A stretch of DNA of 45,021 nt, taken from an uncultured Rhodospirillales bacterium. Its GTDB lineage: Bacteria > Pseudomonadota > Alphaproteobacteria > Reyranellales > Reyranellaceae. Shown piece by piece: positions 939 to 44,874 of the stretch. Both the position numbers and the translations under genes were made by a program. The notes beneath the pieces were generated by a model. It did not search any database. It was not told the origin of the DNA and saw only the letters and a program-made list of their open reading frames with translations. How positions within the stretch are numbered: the first letter of the stretch is position 1; the number at the start of each line of letters is the position of its first letter. The stretch covers positions 1 through 45,021 of the forward strand of contig CAMFJT010000018.1 in NCBI GenBank assembly GCA_945957125.1, written 5' to 3'.

Positions 939-1814
939 CTATTTCGCGTGGCCCGGCGGCAGGCAGCCATTGTGCTTCTTGGCAAGGCCGGGAGGACAGC
1001 CGCCCCCGCCAACATACTCGGTCCGCTCCTGGACCACGACCGGAGCCGCGATAACAGGAGCGGGCACGCCAACCGCGATTCCCGGCCGTGCGAGCGGAAG
1101 CCGTGCCAGGCTCACCACCTCTGCCGCGATCACGCGGGACTCGAGGATCATCAGAAGGACCTGATCGCCGAGCCGAATATATGAATAGCCATCGGGGACC
1201 GGATCGAGTTGCGCGATCAGGGGCTGCGGCAGGGCCTCGTAGGCGATGGCGCGATCGAGAGGCTCGCCCAACGCCCATAGTCGCTTCGGCTCGCATCCCT
1301 GATCGGTACGGACCAGGCCCGCCGGGCAGTTCCCCGCGAGATAGTCGTCCCGGTAGTAGGCGGCTATGGCGTTGCGGTCATGTCCGCTGACGAGCGGGCG
1401 ATTGACGTCCTGCAGACTGGCGAGGCTGCCGATCGACTCCACGATCACCCGTGTACCGAGCGTCATCAGCAGGATGTCGTTGTCGACCCGGACATATTGA
1501 TAGCCCTCCGGCGGAGGCGTGAGCCGGGTGAGCAGCGGAGCGGGAAGGGGGTAGAAAACCGTCGGCGGCGGCAGGGGACTGTCCAGCGTCCAAAGGCGCC
1601 TGGCCGGGCCGGGCGGCAAGCAACCACCGTCGCGGCGCGCCAACCCGGGAGGACAACGGCCTCCGACGTATTCGTCCCGGTAGAACGAATAGACTGCGCC
1701 GCGGTCGCGCTCCGTGACGAAGTCTCTGTGTTTCCCATTCCCTTTGTCCGCCCAGGCCGGGGCGACGAGGATGGAGCACAGAGCGGTTCCCAAGAGTGCT
1801 GCAACGATGCGCAT
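939..1814 (-). CDS. Secreted RcnB-like tandem-repeat protein
   Basis: 291 aa with a clear signal peptide (about residues 1-22, ending APAWA), so exported. The mature part contains two full copies of an RcnB-like unit: a Cys-rich head ([12 protein letters not shown], then a weaker [12 protein letters not shown]) followed by LW-LGEPL/LDSPLP, YxxLPxPL, a [15 protein letters not shown] strand and ILLM..SRVI. A third head-only copy ([19 protein letters not shown]) closes the protein. RcnB-family proteins are periplasmic and linked in enterobacteria to nickel/cobalt homeostasis; this one's role is unproven. ATG 1814 is chosen over one 30 nt upstream because GGAGG lies just before it and the signal peptide starts there. 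A perfect GGAAC-N16-CGTT element sits directly upstream, so stress control is likely. Confidence 0.8.
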
Positions 1815-1834: not shown

Positions 1835-1859
1835 AACGCATCACGTCCGCGCGGGTTCC
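1835..1859 (-). promoter_or_regulatory. EcfG-type general stress promoter
   Basis: On the minus strand reads GGAAC (1859-1855), 16 bases, CGTT (1838-1835), a perfect match to the alphaproteobacterial EcfG/RpoE2/SigT consensus. The CGTT ends 20 bases before the ATG at 1814; transcription from about 1827 would just include the GGAGG ribosome site at 1825-1821. It lies inside the 3' end of the lipid-kinase gene. Sequence match is seen; sigma-factor use is inferred. Confidence 0.6.
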
Positions 1860-3962: not shown

Positions 3963-4982
3963 TCAGCGCAACGGCAGCGGATACATCTGGCCGCCCTTTG
4001 CCGACAACGCGTTGATGCCGCGGCCGAACTTGAGCGGCGAGCCGCGCCCGACATTCCTCTCGTAGATGTCGCCGTAGTTCCCGACCTGCTTGACGATTTC
4101 GTAGAACCAGTCCTCGCTCAGCCCGAGCGCCTTGCCGTTGCCCGGATCGACGCCGAGCAACAGCCGCACCGTCGGGTCGGTCGTCTCGCGCTTCACGGCA
4201 TCGACGTTCTTCGCATTGATGCCACGCTCTTCTGCCTCGAGCATGGCGTAGTGCGTCCAGCGCACCACGTCGAGCCATGGCGAATCGCCATCGCGGACGT
4301 ACGGACCCAGCGGCTCCTTGGAGATCACCTCCGGCAGCATCCTGTACTCGGCCGCCCGGCCACTGCGCACGATGACGCCCGCCAGCGCCGTCGAATCGGC
4401 GGTCACCGCGGCGCAACGGCCGGCATAGAAGGCGTCGTAGGTCGCCTCCGCCGTATCGAACGCGAGCGGCTTGATCGACAGCCGGCGCGCGGCGAACCAG
4501 GCTTTCATATTGAAGTCGTGGGTCGTTCCCTTCGCGAAGCAGACGGTGTTTCCGCTGAGGTTGGCAAGCTGCTCGATATTGAGCTTCTTGGGCACCACGA
4601 ACGCCTGCCCGTCGATGAAGTTCACCACGGCGAAGCGCACCCTGTGGCCCGCGCTGCGCTGCAAGGTGACCGTGGAGTTGCGCGCCAGCACGTCGAACTT
4701 GCCGGCCACCAGATCGTCGAAGCGATCCTTGGCGGACACGGAAACGAACTTCACCTTGTTCGCATTGCCCAGCACTGCGGCAGCGATGGCGCGGCAGAGA
4801 TCGACATCGAGCCCCTCCCATTCCTTCACCGCGTTGTACAGCGAGAAGCCGGGCAATGTGCCGTCGACGCCGCAGACGAGCTCTCCCCGCTTCTTCACGG
4901 TTTCCAGCGTCGACTGCGCCACCGCCGGCGCAGCGACCAGCATCATCGCCGCAAGTGCAACCAACCGTTTCAGGATCCCCAT
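3963..4982 (-). CDS. Periplasmic general L-amino-acid-binding protein, AapJ/BztA-like
   Basis: 339 aa with a signal peptide (residues 1-22, ending APAVAQ), so periplasmic. The solute-binding fold of the AapJ/BztA type shows as RGELVCGVDGTLPGFS, WEGLDVDLCRAIAAAVLG, FDVLARNSTVTLQRSAG, NTVCFAKGTTHDFNMKAWF and the C-terminal GSPLKFGRGINALSAKGG. Length matches AapJ (about 340 aa), which feeds an AapQMP transporter. No permease or ATPase gene is adjacent, so it is an orphan binding protein that must work with a transporter encoded elsewhere or act as a sensor. Divergent from the RND adaptor gene across a 167-nt gap. Confidence 0.9.
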   Translation of the reverse strand: MGILKRLVALAAMMLVAAPAVAQSTLETVKKRGELVCGVDGTLPGFSLYNAVKEWEGLDVDLCRAIAAAVLGNANKVKFVSVSAKDRFDDLVAGKFDVLARNSTVTLQRSAGHRVRFAVVNFIDGQAFVVPKKLNIEQLANLSGNTVCFAKGTTHDFNMKAWFAARRLSIKPLAFDTAEATYDAFYAGRCAAVTADSTALAGVIVRSGRAAEYRMLPEVISKEPLGPYVRDGDSPWLDVVRWTHYAMLEAEERGINAKNVDAVKRETTDPTVRLLLGVDPGNGKALGLSEDWFYEIVKQVGNYGDIYERNVGRGSPLKFGRGINALSAKGGQMYPLPLR

Positions 4983-27183: not shown

Positions 27184-28566
27184 ATGGACGGCACGACGAT
27201 CTACGCGCTCGGCACCGCGCCGCCCTCGCGTGCCCGGCCGGGGGCGCTGTCGGTCATCCGGCTGAGCGGGCCGCGCGCGGCCGATGCGCTGATCTTCCTG
27301 ACCGAACGGGGGGCTTTCGCGCGTGGCCGTTCGATGCGTGCGGCAGCCCTGCCCGAGCCGCGGCGGCTGGCGCTGCGGACCCTCTACGATCCCCTGAGCG
27401 AGGAGCGGATCGACCGCGGGCTCGTCGTCTGGTTCGAGGCGCCCCGCACCGAGACTGGCGAGACGATGGCGGAGCTGCATCTGCATGGCGGGCGCGCCGT
27501 GGCGCAAGCTGCTCTCGGCGCGATCCAGAGGCTCGGCTTCTGCCGCTTGGCCGAGCCGGGCGAGTTCACGCGCCGTGCCTTCGAGAACGGCAAGCTCGAT
27601 CTGACCGAAGCCGAAGCGATCGCTGATCTCGTCGATGCCGAGACGGAGCAGCAGCGGCGGTTGGCCTTGCAGCAGATGGATGGCGCTCTACACCGCCTCT
27701 ACGAGGATTGGCGGGCGCAGGGCCTCGCCGCCCTCGCCCATCTCGAGGCGGCGATCGATTTCCCCGACGAGGACCTGCCCGAGGGGCTGGCCGATACGGT
27801 CGGGACCGCGATCGCCCGGTTGCAGGCCGCGATCGCCGCGCATCTCGACGACCGGCGCGGCGAGCGCCTGCGCGAGGGGCTGAGCATCGCCATCATCGGG
27901 CCGCCCAATGCCGGCAAGTCGTCGTTGCTCAACCTGCTGGCGCGGCGCGAGGCGGCGATCGTGTCGGAGACCGCCGGCACGACACGCGACGTGATCGAGG
28001 TCCATCTCGATCTCGGCGGCTGGCCGGTCGTTCTGGCCGATACCGCAGGCCTGCGCGAGACCGCCGATGCCATCGAGCAGGAAGGCGTGCGCCGTGCCAG
28101 GGCCCGTGCCCAGCAGGCCGACCTGCGCCTGCTGGTGCTCGACGCCAGCGATTCCGACTGGTCGGGCACGATGCAGGCGCTGACGGCGGCGGGGACCCGT
28201 TGGGTGCCCGAGCACGACATCGTCGTCGTCAACAAGGTCGATATCGCGCCGACCGACGCGACCGGCGCGGTCGCCCTGTCGGCCCGGTCGGGTGCGGGCC
28301 TGCCGGAACTGCTGGCGCGCCTCGAACGCTCGGCCGGTGCGCTGATGGAGCGGGGCGCCGGCGCGCCACCGCTCACCCGGGCGCGCCACCGCGAGGCGCT
28401 GACCGAAGCACATGACGCCCTCGGCCGTGCCCTCGATGCACCGGAAATCGCGCTCTCAGCCGAAGATCTGCGACTCGCCATGCGCGCCCTGGGCCGGATC
28501 ACCGGGACGGTCCGTGTCGACGAGCTTCTCGACGTCATCTTCCGGGACTTCTGCATCGGAAAATAG
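27184..28566 (+). CDS. mnmE: tRNA uridine-5-carboxymethylaminomethyl modification GTPase
   Basis: 460 aa. With MnmG it makes the 5-(carboxymethyl)aminomethyl group at wobble U34 of several tRNAs, using 5-formyl/methylene-THF and GTP. Domain order: N-terminal folate-binding domain (TIYALGTAPPSRARPGALSV, ending LHGGRAV), helical domain, the inserted G domain with GPPNAGKSSLLNLL, VLADTAGLRET and VVNKVD, and the invariant C-terminal FCIGK whose Cys is required. Cytoplasmic. Its TAG stop shares a base with the EcfG-type promoter of katE. Confidence 0.97.
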   Translation: MDGTTIYALGTAPPSRARPGALSVIRLSGPRAADALIFLTERGAFARGRSMRAAALPEPRRLALRTLYDPLSEERIDRGLVVWFEAPRTETGETMAELHLHGGRAVAQAALGAIQRLGFCRLAEPGEFTRRAFENGKLDLTEAEAIADLVDAETEQQRRLALQQMDGALHRLYEDWRAQGLAALAHLEAAIDFPDEDLPEGLADTVGTAIARLQAAIAAHLDDRRGERLREGLSIAIIGPPNAGKSSLLNLLARREAAIVSETAGTTRDVIEVHLDLGGWPVVLADTAGLRETADAIEQEGVRRARARAQQADLRLLVLDASDSDWSGTMQALTAAGTRWVPEHDIVVVNKVDIAPTDATGAVALSARSGAGLPELLARLERSAGALMERGAGAPPLTRARHREALTEAHDALGRALDAPEIALSAEDLRLAMRALGRITGTVRVDELLDVIFRDFCIGK

Positions 28567-28591
28567 GAACCGGGTTCCCCTGGCTTACGTT
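28566..28591 (+). promoter_or_regulatory. EcfG-type general stress promoter for katE-ligD-ku
   Basis: GGAAC (28566-28570), 17 bases, CGTT (28588-28591): a perfect match to the alphaproteobacterial general-stress consensus, 40 nt before the katE ATG. Use by an EcfG sigma factor is inferred; the gene content downstream fits. Confidence 0.68.
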
Positions 28592-28631: not shown

Positions 28632-30719
28632 ATGAGCAAGCCGACAAAGCGCGCGTCGCGGACGCCTTCCGCCGCCATGACGGAAGGGGGCGAAACGCAT
28701 CAGACAGCCACGTCCGGCGACAACACGCTGACCACCAATCAAGGCACCCCGGTCTCCGACAACCAGAATTCGCTGAAGGGCGGGGCGCGCGGACCGACCT
28801 TGCTGGAGGACTTCATCCTCCGCGAGAAGATCACGCATTTCGACCATGAGCGCATTCCCGAGCGCATCGTCCATGCGCGCGGCTCGGCGGCGCACGGCTA
28901 TTTCGAAGCGGCGCGCGGGGCGTCGAGGTTCAGCAAGGCGGCGTTCCTGCAACCGGGCAAGCGGACGCGGGTCTTCACCCGCTTCTCGACCGTTGCCGGG
29001 GGGGCCGGATCGGTCGACACGCCGCGCGACGTTCGCGGATTCGCGGTCAAGTTCTATACCGAGGAAGGCAACTTCGACCTGGTCGGCAACAACATCCCGG
29101 TCTTCTTCATCCAGGACGCGATGAAATTTCCCGACCTCGTCCATTCGGTGAAGATGGAGCCCGATCGCGGGTTCCCGCAGGCAGCCTCGGCGCATGACAC
29201 GTTCTGGGACTTCATCTCCCTCATGCCCGAGAGCATGAACATGATCATGTGGGCGATGTCGGACCGCACCATTCCCTACTCGCTGCGCCACATCGAAGGG
29301 TTCGGGGTCCATACCTTCCGGCTGATCGACGACCGCGACGAGTCGACCTTCGTGAAGTTCCACTGGCGGCCGTCGGTCGGCGCCATGTCGACGGCCTGGG
29401 AGGAGGCGGTGAAGATCGCCGGCGCCGATCCCGACCACCAGCGTCGCGACCTGTTCGAATCGATCGAGGCCGGCAACTTCCCCGAATGGACGCTGTCGAT
29501 CCAGGCGTTCGATCAGGCCAAGGCCGATTCGCTCGACTTCGATATCCTCGATCCGACCAAGATCATCCCCGAGGAGATCATCCCGCTGACGCCGATCGGG
29601 CGGATGGTGCTCGATCGCAATCCGACGAACTTCTTTGCCGAGACCGAGCAGGTCGCCTTCCACCCGGGCAATCTGGTGCCCGGTATCGACGTCACGCCCG
29701 ATCCGCTGCTGCAGGGCCGCCTGTTCTCCTATCAGGACACGCAGCTCATCCGTCTCGGCGGCCCGAATTTCCACCAGATCCCGATCAACGCGCCGGTCTG
29801 TCCGTTCCATAACATGCAGCGTGACGGCCATATGCAGATGCAGGTGCCGACGGGTCGCGTGGCCTACGAGCCCAACTCGCTCGATCCGAACGGTCCCCGC
29901 GAGAATCCCGCCCGGGGCTTCAGGAGCTTCCCCGATCCGGAATCCGGGCCGAAGCTGCGCAAGCGGCCGCAATCCTTCGCCGACCATTACTCGCAGGCGC
30001 GCCAGTTCTATCGCTCCATGACTCCGCCCGAGCAGACCAATATCGTGAGTGCGCTGACCTTCGAGTTGAGCAAGGTCGAGACGGTGGCGGTACGTACCCG
30101 CATGCTGGGCCATCTCGACCTGATCGAGCCCGAGCTCGGCAAGCGCGTCGCCGCGGCCATGGCGATGACGGGAACGGCCGACAGCATCACGCCGGCGGTG
30201 CCGCCGCGCGACGATCTCCCGCCCTCGCCCGCGCTCAGCCTCGTGGCCAAGGCGCCCGCGACGATCAAGGGCCGGACGCTCGCGGTTCTGGTGACCGACG
30301 GCAGCGACGGCAAGGCGATCGCCAGCCTGCAGCGCGCCGTGAAGAAGGAGGGCGGAACGCTGAAGCTGGTCGCCCCGAAGATCGGCGCGTTGAAGGGCAG
30401 CGGGCTGACGCCGGACATGACGATCGAAGGCGGGCCGTCAGTGCTGTTCGACGCCGTGGTCCTGTTGCCGGCGGAGGACCAGGTCGAGACGCTGATGACG
30501 ATGGCGGCGGCGATCAACTGGCTGCGCGATGCGTTCGGGCATCTCAAGGCGATCGGGTTCAATGCAGCGGCCGCTTCATTGTTCGACAAGGGCGGCCTGG
30601 ATTCCGCCGCGCCCGGCGTGGTGCCGGTCGACGGAAAAGGCGGGTTCGACGGCTTCATCTCGGCCGCGAAGAAGCACAAGATATGGGAGCGTGATTCTCT
30701 GGTGAACCCGCCACGCTGA
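28632..30719 (+). CDS. katE: Large-subunit (clade 2, HPII-type) heme catalase
   Basis: 695 aa. Dismutates hydrogen peroxide; cytoplasmic. The distal His lies in RIVHARGSAAHGYFE, the Asn in FDLVGNNIPVFFIQDA, and the proximal heme-ligand Tyr in LFSYQDTQLIRLGGPNFHQI. The length and the extra C-terminal flavodoxin/DJ-1-like domain (from about residue 555, KGRTLAVLVTDGSDGKAIAS) define the large-subunit class. ATG 28632 is chosen; an upstream TTG at 28596 is possible but would overlap the promoter region. It begins a tight unit with ligD (3-nt gap) and ku, behind a perfect EcfG-type promoter. Confidence 0.95.
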   Translation: MSKPTKRASRTPSAAMTEGGETHQTATSGDNTLTTNQGTPVSDNQNSLKGGARGPTLLEDFILREKITHFDHERIPERIVHARGSAAHGYFEAARGASRFSKAAFLQPGKRTRVFTRFSTVAGGAGSVDTPRDVRGFAVKFYTEEGNFDLVGNNIPVFFIQDAMKFPDLVHSVKMEPDRGFPQAASAHDTFWDFISLMPESMNMIMWAMSDRTIPYSLRHIEGFGVHTFRLIDDRDESTFVKFHWRPSVGAMSTAWEEAVKIAGADPDHQRRDLFESIEAGNFPEWTLSIQAFDQAKADSLDFDILDPTKIIPEEIIPLTPIGRMVLDRNPTNFFAETEQVAFHPGNLVPGIDVTPDPLLQGRLFSYQDTQLIRLGGPNFHQIPINAPVCPFHNMQRDGHMQMQVPTGRVAYEPNSLDPNGPRENPARGFRSFPDPESGPKLRKRPQSFADHYSQARQFYRSMTPPEQTNIVSALTFELSKVETVAVRTRMLGHLDLIEPELGKRVAAAMAMTGTADSITPAVPPRDDLPPSPALSLVAKAPATIKGRTLAVLVTDGSDGKAIASLQRAVKKEGGTLKLVAPKIGALKGSGLTPDMTIEGGPSVLFDAVVLLPAEDQVETLMTMAAAINWLRDAFGHLKAIGFNAAAASLFDKGGLDSAAPGVVPVDGKGGFDGFISAAKKHKIWERDSLVNPPR

Positions 30720-42788: not shown

Positions 42789-43514
42789 ATGGTGGCCCGG
42801 CCAAAGGAATTTCGTCCTCACATCATCGTGGTGGAGGACGAGCAGTTTCAGCGCGAAACCCTCGTCGACTTCCTCGACGACAAGGGATACCGCGCCACGG
42901 GCGTCGATTCCGGCGCGGCGCTGCGCAAGCTGGTCGAGAAGGATCCGCCGGCGCTGGTGCTGCTCGACCTGCGCCTGCCCGGCGGCGAGGACGGCTTTTC
43001 TCTCGCTCGTTATCTGCGCGAACGCAGTCGCCGCATGGGCATCATCATGGTGACGGCGAGCGACGACACCGTGGACCAGGTCGTCGGTCTCGAGACCGGG
43101 GCCGACGACTACATCGCCAAGCCCTACGAGGCGCGCGCCCTGCTCGCCCGCATCAAGGCGGTGCTTCGCCGGGCCGGCGGTGCCGAGGCGGCGACCCCGA
43201 CCGAGCGGGTGCGCATGGGCAAGTGCCTGCTCGACCTGGCAGGCCGCCGCATGACCGCGCTCTCCGGCGAGGAGGTGCCGCTGCGTGCCGGCGAGTTCGA
43301 GCTGCTGAAGCTCTTCGCGGAAAATCCCAATCGGCCTCTCACCCGCGACTGGCTGCTGGAGACGACGAGCCATCGCGAGATGGAGGCGTTCGATCGCGCC
43401 ATCGACATCCGCATCCTGCGCATCCGGCGCAAGATCGAGGCCGATCCGGCGCGGCCCACCTCGATCCGCACGGTGCGCGGCGCCGGCTACATGTTCGTGC
43501 CGCCCGACGACTGA
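42789..43514 (+). CDS. OmpR/PhoB-family response regulator
   Basis: 241 aa. The N-terminal receiver domain has the acidic pocket VVEDEQF, the phospho-acceptor Asp 60 in VLLDLRLPGGEDGF, the Thr in IIMVTASDD and Lys in DDYIAKPYEARALLAR. The C-terminal winged helix ends with the OmpR hallmark RPTSIRTVRGAGYMFVPP. It resembles TorR/KdpE-like members. ATG 42789 lies directly before the receiver. Divergent from the hybrid kinase, its probable upstream partner, and 150 nt upstream of the encapsulin operon, which it might regulate; both links are inference. Confidence 0.94.
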   Translation: MVARPKEFRPHIIVVEDEQFQRETLVDFLDDKGYRATGVDSGAALRKLVEKDPPALVLLDLRLPGGEDGFSLARYLRERSRRMGIIMVTASDDTVDQVVGLETGADDYIAKPYEARALLARIKAVLRRAGGAEAATPTERVRMGKCLLDLAGRRMTALSGEEVPLRAGEFELLKLFAENPNRPLTRDWLLETTSHREMEAFDRAIDIRILRIRRKIEADPARPTSIRTVRGAGYMFVPPDD

Positions 43515-43583: not shown

Positions 43584-43608
43584 GGAACTCGCGACGATCT
43601 GAGGCGTT
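43584..43608 (+). promoter_or_regulatory. EcfG-type general stress promoter for the encapsulin operon
   Basis: GGAAC (43584-43588), 16 bases, CGTT (43605-43608): perfect consensus, 55 nt before the encapsulated-ferritin ATG, in a non-coding gap. Sigma-factor use inferred. Confidence 0.68.
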
Positions 43609-43663
43609 CACCCGCAGGAACGGCCGCACTCCGCGTTCGTCCGCACAGCGGGAGTTATTACGA

Positions 43664-44059
43664 ATGTCGAGCGAGGCCTTGCACGAAAGCGCCGAGAAGA
43701 TCGGCGCCGAGGCGATCGATACCCATCGCGCGATCGTTTCGCTGATGGAGGAGCTGGAGGCGGTCGACTGGTACAACCAGCGCGCCAAGGCGACGGGCAA
43801 CCCCGAGCTTCGTGCCATCCTCGAACACAACCGCGACGAGGAGAAGGAGCACGCCGCCATGGCGCTCGAATGGCTGCGCCGGACCGATCGCAAGTTCGCC
43901 GAGCACCTCCAGACGTTCCTGTTCACCGACGGCCCTATCGTCGGCATCGAGAAGGAGGTCGTGCACGGCGAGGGCGGCAGCGCAGGCGGGACATCCGCGG
44001 CGAGCGGCGACGGCAGCCTCGGGATCGGCAGCTTGCGCAAGGCGGGAGGCAACAAGTGA
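43664..44059 (+). CDS. Encapsulated ferritin-like ferroxidase (EncFtn)
   Basis: 131 aa. A two-helix ferritin-like protein that assembles into a ring, oxidises Fe2+ and passes it into the encapsulin shell. The N-terminus SSEALHESAEKIGAEAIDTH and the metal-site segments MEELEAVDWY (Glu near 30-32) and HNRDEEKEHAAM (Glu 60, His 63, ExxH) match the Rhodospirillum rubrum EncFtn. A flexible Gly/Ser linker leads to the C-terminal cargo-loading peptide DGSLGIGSLRK. GGAG lies 10 nt before the ATG. Its stop overlaps the GTG of the shell gene by 4 nt. Confidence 0.96.
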   Translation: MSSEALHESAEKIGAEAIDTHRAIVSLMEELEAVDWYNQRAKATGNPELRAILEHNRDEEKEHAAMALEWLRRTDRKFAEHLQTFLFTDGPIVGIEKEVVHGEGGSAGGTSAASGDGSLGIGSLRKAGGNK

Positions 44060-44874
44060 ACCATCTCTTTCGCGAGCGCGCACCGATCACGCCGGCCGGC
44101 TGGGAGGAGATCGAGAAGGAAGCGCGCCGCACCTTGCGCGCGTTGCTGGCCGCCCGGCGCGTGGTCGATTTCCGCGGGCCTCTGGGCTGGAGCGCGTCGG
44201 ATGTCGAGCTGGGCCGCGCCGATCCGATTGCCTCGCCGCCCAGCGGCAGCGACATCCAGGCGCGCCTGCGCCGCATCCAGCCGCTGGTCGAGCTGCGCAT
44301 TCCGTTCGACGTGAGCCGCTCCGAGCTCGACGCGATCGATCGCGGCGCGCGCGACCCCGATCTCGATTCGGTGACGGCGGCGGCCCGCGAGATCGCCATC
44401 GCCGAGGACCGCTCGATCTTCCACGGCTATCGGGCGGCGCACATCACCGGCATCTGCGAGAAGCTCGAAGGCGCGGCCGTGCCGCTCGGCAGCAGCCATG
44501 CCGACTATCCGCTGGCCGTCGCGACGGCTCTCAACAAGCTGCGCGACGAGGGCATCGAAGGCCCCTTCGCGGTGGTGCTGAACGAGCGGCTCTACAAGGA
44601 TCTGTCGGCGCGGACCGACGGCGGCTATCCGATCATCAGCCACGTCCAGCGCCTGATCGACGGCGACATCGTCTGGGCGCCCGGCATCGACGGGGGCCTG
44701 GTGATCTCCCAGCGCGGCGGCGATTTCGAGCTCTCGGTCGGGCAGGATTTCTCGATCGGCTATCTCGAGCACGACACCGAGAAGGTGCGGCTCTACATCG
44801 AGGAGAGCTTCACCTTCCTGATCCTGACCGGACAGGCCGCGATCCCGCTGCGCACCGGCAAGCCCGCCGCGTAG
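44056..44874 (+). CDS. Family 1 encapsulin nanocompartment shell protein
   Basis: 272 aa. Self-assembles with the HK97 phage capsid fold into a hollow shell, expected T=1 (60 copies, about 24 nm). It begins HLFRERAPITPAGWEEIEKE, the region that lines the interior and grips cargo peptides; VVDFRGPLGWSASDVELGR, EDRSIFHGY and the C-terminal ESFTFLILTGQAAIPL are family blocks. GTG start overlaps the EncFtn stop. The pair forms an iron-storage and oxidative-stress compartment; a perfect general-stress promoter precedes it. No phage genes are nearby, so this is the domesticated form. Confidence 0.96.
   Translation: MNHLFRERAPITPAGWEEIEKEARRTLRALLAARRVVDFRGPLGWSASDVELGRADPIASPPSGSDIQARLRRIQPLVELRIPFDVSRSELDAIDRGARDPDLDSVTAAAREIAIAEDRSIFHGYRAAHITGICEKLEGAAVPLGSSHADYPLAVATALNKLRDEGIEGPFAVVLNERLYKDLSARTDGGYPIISHVQRLIDGDIVWAPGIDGGLVISQRGGDFELSVGQDFSIGYLEHDTEKVRLYIEESFTFLILTGQAAIPLRTGKPAA

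Follow-up and report, generated by a model that had tools for sequence, protein, structure and literature searches.

The window analysed here, a stretch of 45,021 nucleotides from an uncultured member of the Reyranellaceae, ends in two plus-strand genes of an encapsulin system. The first (43664..44059) encodes EncFtn, the encapsulated ferritin-like cargo (131 aa), which matches PF22277 and scores 137.3 bits against TIGR04535 (cut-off 125). The second (44056..44874) encodes a Family 1 encapsulin shell of 272 aa, which matches PF04454 and, over residues 5-265, NF041155 (310.4 bits; cut-off 100). The GTG start of the shell gene at 44056 overlaps the EncFtn stop codon, and the two genes form an operon at the window end.

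EncFtn is identified by its family profile together with a C-terminal targeting tail, LGIGSLR (44018..44038, plus strand), which in translation aligns to DGSLGIGSL of PDB 33bf; the shell is identified by a full-length profile match beside the cargo gene. The closest solved structures are 33bf and 5da5 (Rru_A0973) for EncFtn and 9ry4 for the shell. Compared on proteins, the system has the same cargo and shell families, and the same tail, as the EncFtn-encapsulin of Rhodospirillum rubrum to which 33bf and 5da5 belong. Two stretches of EncFtn, MEELEAVDWY and HNRDEEKEHAAM, align without a break to Rru_A0973 and presumably contain residues with roles in the putative ferroxidase function of EncFtn. 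Among the best 80 of 288 named matches, the shell gene is closest to Reyranella records and to records under the title Enhydrobacter, hence the name Reyranella used here for this genome.

Upstream of this operon lies an exact match to the EcfG-type promoter (43584..43608, plus strand), comprising a -35 GGAAC at 43584-43588, a 16-nt spacer and a -10 CGTT at 43605-43608; the consensus applied is that given in excerpts of PMC3892343, PMC4814048 and PMC7083833. From the end of CGTT, 55 nt lead to the EncFtn ATG at 43664, and a probable Shine-Dalgarno sequence, GGGAG (43650..43654, plus strand, by sequence inspection), stands 9 nt before that ATG. The sequence-only reading had placed this element in a true intergenic gap, and the coordinates agree: 149 nt separate the stop codon of the upstream response-regulator gene at 43514 from the EncFtn ATG, and the element is wholly inside.

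The same reading had pointed to three such elements just upstream of start codons. The distances stand (55, 40 and 20 nt), but the encapsulin copy is the only one that sits entirely within a gap; both others touch the reading frame before them at its end. The second copy (28566..28591, plus strand, N17) precedes the ATG at 28632 of katE (28632-30719, plus strand), a catalase matching PF00199. The third (1835..1859, minus strand, N16) precedes the ATG at 1814 of an RcnB-like gene (939-1814, minus strand) of the nickel/cobalt regulator family PF11776. Three perfect matches compare with 0.50 expected in shuffled windows (sd 0.61; none of 100 shuffles reached three), in keeping with the earlier estimate of 0.5-0.7. 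Across the whole genome (6.41 Mb, two strands), the perfect pattern scarcely exceeds a reversed control (78 matches against 71). Taken alone, a perfect match is thus weak evidence and not diagnostic, and because it proves so little by itself, the case rests on conservation.

Recurrence of the element in Reyranellaceae and beyond

EncFtn was found in 54 of the 75 family genomes examined (57 matches). Of these matches, 56 loci were fetched, 55 of them with upstream DNA, and 51 of the latter are of encapsulin type. A fragment of the C terminus at the start of a contig (G051:C26), a locus with no upstream DNA (L071) and four tail-less loci (L082-L085) were left out; three loci cut by contig ends (L081, L086, L087) and L080 are counted among the 51 though incomplete. 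In L080 (G054), EncFtn has no targeting tail and the stretch holds no shell match; an EcfG-type element lies at 78 nt. The element was found in none of the four tail-less family loci.

Conservation with fixed spacing, which the sequence-only reading had named as support for the promoter, is borne out. Within 300 nt upstream, G[G/C]AAC-N16/17-CGTT is present in all 51 encapsulin-type loci, with GGAAC in 45 and GCAAC in the other six. In Sphingopyxis granuli, general-stress promoters have these two -35 boxes most often, according to an excerpt of PMC7083833. In the same loci, the reversed pattern occurs in 0/51, the element itself in 0/51 at 300-600 nt and 0/49 at 600-900 nt upstream, and on the opposite strand in 8/51. 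When spacings from 8 to 26 nt are allowed, GGAAC and CGTT are separated only by 16 (41 loci), 17 (7) or 12 nt (2), and GCAAC and CGTT by 16 (8), 17 (4), 10 (1), 11 (1) or 12 nt (2). When every pairing of 4-mers at gaps of 0-25 was scored without bias in the 160 nt upstream of the 51 loci, GAAC-16-CGTT and the same pair shifted by one base came out on top (41/51 each); the best unrelated pair reaches 13/51, and in the adjoining 160 nt farther upstream the highest count for any pair is 17.

The bases of the motif carry 1.48-2.00 bits, and the neighbouring tabulated columns carry at most 0.89. The 16-nt spacers, present in 44 loci, have a mean identity of 0.35, with 19 of them mutually no more than 50% identical. 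Relatives retain the element before this operon, with spacers that have diverged. These observations bear on the possibility that the match arose by chance, a reading to which the near-equality of genome-wide matches and reversed control lends some weight. At the rate of the genome itself, however, about 0.1 exact matches would be expected in 51 × 300 nt, and 45 loci have one. Given the conservation, the rank of the word pair and the divergence of the spacers around the kept element, chance was rejected and its probability is taken as negligible.

The response-regulator gene upstream of EncFtn was matched in only 15 of the 56 loci, in one of them in part, indicating that the element outlives its neighbour. 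Dependence of the element on this neighbour was rejected on the same ground.

The other two promoters of the window were followed with a relaxed form, G[G/C]AAC-N16/17-[C/G]GTT, within 300 nt upstream of 30 loci per search, a subset of all matches, and some of the start codons there are guesses. The relaxed element was found upstream of 28/30 katE relatives (exact in 8) and 19/30 RcnB-like relatives (exact in 13), in some cases far from the guessed start, and the earlier remark on three promoters gains from this recurrence. For the RcnB-like gene, it suggests that metal handling may form part of the stress regulon.

Outside the family, the association thins. Among the best 80 of 288 named loci, five had no usable EncFtn start; record titles divided the remaining 75 into 37 Reyranella-group, 25 other alphaproteobacterial and 13 non-alphaproteobacterial loci. 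Some of these named loci also figure in the unnamed sets. All 37 Reyranella-group loci, a set that overlaps the 51, have the element (31 with GGAAC). The exact motif occurs in 5/25 of the other alphaproteobacterial loci, two of the five (L222, L224) being in the window's own GTDB family; GAAC-N16/17-[C/G]GTT fits 9/25, in one case 207 nt away, and GGAAAC-N16-CGTT is common to L239 and L249 at 103-104 nt. The 13 non-alphaproteobacterial EncFtn-encapsulin operons lack both the exact motif and the wider one upstream, and a one-mismatch form is present in two (L244, L245). The class and phylum searches covered 386 and 397 genomes, respectively, sampled from larger groups. In the class sample, 4/10 shell-bearing EncFtn loci outside the family have the exact motif, distributed by family as 3/3 (f54), 1/1 (f120), 0/2 (f108), 0/1 (f138) and 0/3 (f32).

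Among the loci examined, then, every encapsulin-type locus of Reyranellaceae has the element, and elsewhere its presence is patchy. Neither the named loci nor the class sample support extending this to alphaproteobacterial EncFtn operons in general. A rule for all EncFtn-like proteins was also rejected, the exact motif standing in just 4 of 72 entries without a targeting tail (Alphaproteobacteria and other classes, the tail judged by eye and at least two loci present twice). A Reyranella relative (G052) has a second encapsulin (L352), preceded by a frame with an LGIGSLK tail that we take to be a DyP peroxidase; the upstream stretch examined there contains no G[G/C]AAC-N16/17-[C/G]GTT.

Promoter position and the leader

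The distance between the nearest CGTT and the EncFtn ATG falls into two classes. In 21 of the 51 loci, CGTT ends 8-9 nt before the ATG; in the other 30, it ends 32-78 nt before. A ribosome-site core (GGAG, GAGG or AGGA at -16 to -4) is present in 25/30 of the leadered loci and in 0/21 of the 8-9 nt class. Since CGTT abuts the ATG and the Shine-Dalgarno core is missing, the mRNA of the 8-9 nt class is probably leaderless and the EcfG-type promoter probably the main one in those loci. The simplest reading would have transcription begin on or beside the A of the ATG, with any longer message not the main one.

The recurrence of this arrangement was assessed on a tree of 46 of the 51 operons, the other five, whose shell is missing or shorter than 200 residues, being left out. 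Three changes are needed on this tree, and well-supported branches, which set L044 and L079 apart from a group of 17, force at least two. Repeated movement of a promoter to a start codon without a ribosome-site core would represent a natural record of promoter use. An EcfG-like element on the opposite strand, 38-116 nt from the ATG, is confined to loci of the 8-9 nt class (L055, L058, L063, L064, L065, L067, L069 and L086) and perhaps serves a divergent stress gene.

The leadered loci, the window among them, retain a second conserved feature. An alignment of 23 leaders, from the window and 22 relatives, contains a box between the -10 and the Shine-Dalgarno sequence (43620..43644, plus strand; acggccgcactccgcgttcgtccgc in the window), which may be a regulator site. 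A leader RNA hairpin (CGGAC...GTCCG) had seemed likely by eye and was rejected, as no consensus pair is predicted for the 23 leaders; seven leaders folded singly gave z from 0.37 to -2.06.

The EcfG-type promoter could be real but secondary in leadered species such as that of the window, with EcfG adding a boost under stress and most expression coming from a housekeeping or iron-responsive promoter or from transcription that runs on out of the response-regulator gene; the box, as a possible regulator site, would fit this. The usual control of 24-mer ferritins by iron-responsive regulators, and of mini-ferritins by stress sigma factors, as described in part of a review (PMC7762939), points the same way. 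This arrangement is nevertheless rather unlikely. The 160 nt upstream hold no other word pair conserved to a comparable degree (13/51 against 41/51), the response-regulator neighbour is mostly not kept, and in the 21 leaderless loci, which lack a ribosome-site core, a longer message seems unimportant.

The PhyR locus and its sigma factors

Contig C87 of the same genome contains a locus with PhyR, csbD, two side-by-side ECF sigma genes and a NepR-like frame. PhyR combines a sigma-like domain with a receiver, scoring 301.7 bits against NF006623 (cut-off 240) and matching PF22029, PF22233 and, among other structures, PDB 4qic, which is named PhyR. The NepR match is weak (23.8 bits, below the Pfam cut-off of 25.7). 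Across 65 genomes of the genus, NepR is matched in 49 at E 0.001, over the cut-off in 35, and has no match in 16. The ECF sigma factor adjoining the NepR frame has as its best structure 5uxx (E 7.2e-36), which we take to be an alphaproteobacterial sigma factor solved with NepR; among the NCBIfam ECF models, only the superfamily model is above its cut-off for this protein.

The adjacency of two ECF sigma genes raises the question of which protein reads the element. A different ECF sigma factor of the same specificity, for instance the second gene beside ecfG, could do so, and EcfG paralogues with like promoters are described for Sphingopyxis and Methylobacterium in excerpts of PMC7083833 and PMC4814048. 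We regard this as improbable, the sigma factor before nepR having 5uxx as its closest structure; such a paralogue would in any case still belong to the general stress response.

Within this locus, GCAAC-N16-CGTT lies just upstream of csbD. Both katE and csbD are kinds of gene reported as EcfG targets (excerpts of PMC7083833 and PMC6599016), and csbD and catalases are among the targets named for Sphingopyxis granuli (PMC7083833, in part).

Of 31 nepR loci (L088, L262-L291), 21 have a further EcfG-type element on the opposite strand. On C87 (L088), it lies at 4817-4841 on the minus strand, and the feature takes in about 100 nt behind it. Behind the element, 19 of the 21 loci have a conserved core containing CGGGCTGAC together with a strong, terminator-like hairpin. 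An alignment of 14 of these folds as one structure, with changes on both sides and pairing kept in 9 of 27 pairs. The predicted transcript is a candidate GsrN-like small RNA. Homologues of GsrN are typically close to the general stress locus, according to an excerpt of PMC5869019. A search against Rfam gave no match in the window at gathering scores, and none beside nepR at E up to 1.

Proposed control of the encapsulin operon

With a conserved EcfG-type promoter before a two-gene operon, and a locus of PhyR, EcfG-like sigma factor and weakly matching NepR in the same genome, the EncFtn-encapsulin operon very probably belongs directly to the EcfG (PhyR-NepR-sigma) general stress regulon. Points that weigh against this are the scant excess of perfect matches across the genome, the opposite-strand elements in 8/51 upstream regions, the sub-threshold NepR match with its gaps across the genus, and the patchiness outside the family. 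Under stress, PhyR would bind NepR and release EcfG, which would initiate transcription about 9 nt after CGTT. The leaderless class gives indirect support to this presumed start-site distance. One mRNA would yield both EncFtn and the shell through their overlapping stop and start codons, and the shell would package EncFtn via the LGIGSLR tail. The loaded cage would then oxidise and store iron and, alongside the catalase KatE, curb Fenton chemistry; katE lies 13 kb from the encapsulin operon behind the same kind of promoter. We infer both the dependence on EcfG and the tie to starvation, desiccation and oxidative stress from these sequences.

The proposal extends what is described for related regulons. 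Those of Sphingopyxis granuli, Sphingomonas melonis, Rhizobium etli and Methylobacterium extorquens use the same GGAAC (or GCAAC)-N16/17-CGTT, and across the four, the targets include catalases, csbD and ferritin-like DNA-binding proteins; unlike the proposal for Reyranella, the excerpts concerned (PMC7083833, PMC6599016, PMC3892343, PMC4814048) do not name encapsulin among them. Dps mini-ferritins are likewise iron-binding proteins under sigma-factor control in nutritional and oxidative stress (PMC7762939, in part), whereas the store here is an encapsulin shell with packaged EncFtn. For the DyP-encapsulin of Klebsiella, too, a stress role has been suggested, in part on the strength of an RpoH-like sigma gene in its neighbourhood; there, cargo and bacterial class differ, and the role was deduced from neighbourhood and not from a promoter (excerpt of PMC10960027). 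A search of open-access journal papers returned no paper linking encapsulin (or linocin) to EcfG, and nothing combining encapsulated ferritin, promoter and Alphaproteobacteria. Reyranella and encapsulin are both mentioned in PMC8776678, the topic of which, from the part available, is Acetobacteraceae metabolites. The parts are of known kinds; within the literature searched, the novelty appears to lie in their conserved connection.

To our knowledge, the trigger of encapsulin formation is unclear in most bacteria, and a conserved stress-sigma promoter offers a testable answer, for one alphaproteobacterial family, to how an encapsulin is switched on. A bolder possibility, held tentatively and at somewhat below even chances, is that the Reyranellaceae encapsulin is a general-stress organelle and not one of iron homeostasis. 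EcfG would be the main entry to the operon, the promoter having settled on the start codon in more than one lineage, where a leaderless mRNA would be made only when EcfG is free. If direct membership in the regulon holds, iron storage in encapsulin and catalase would share one regulon.
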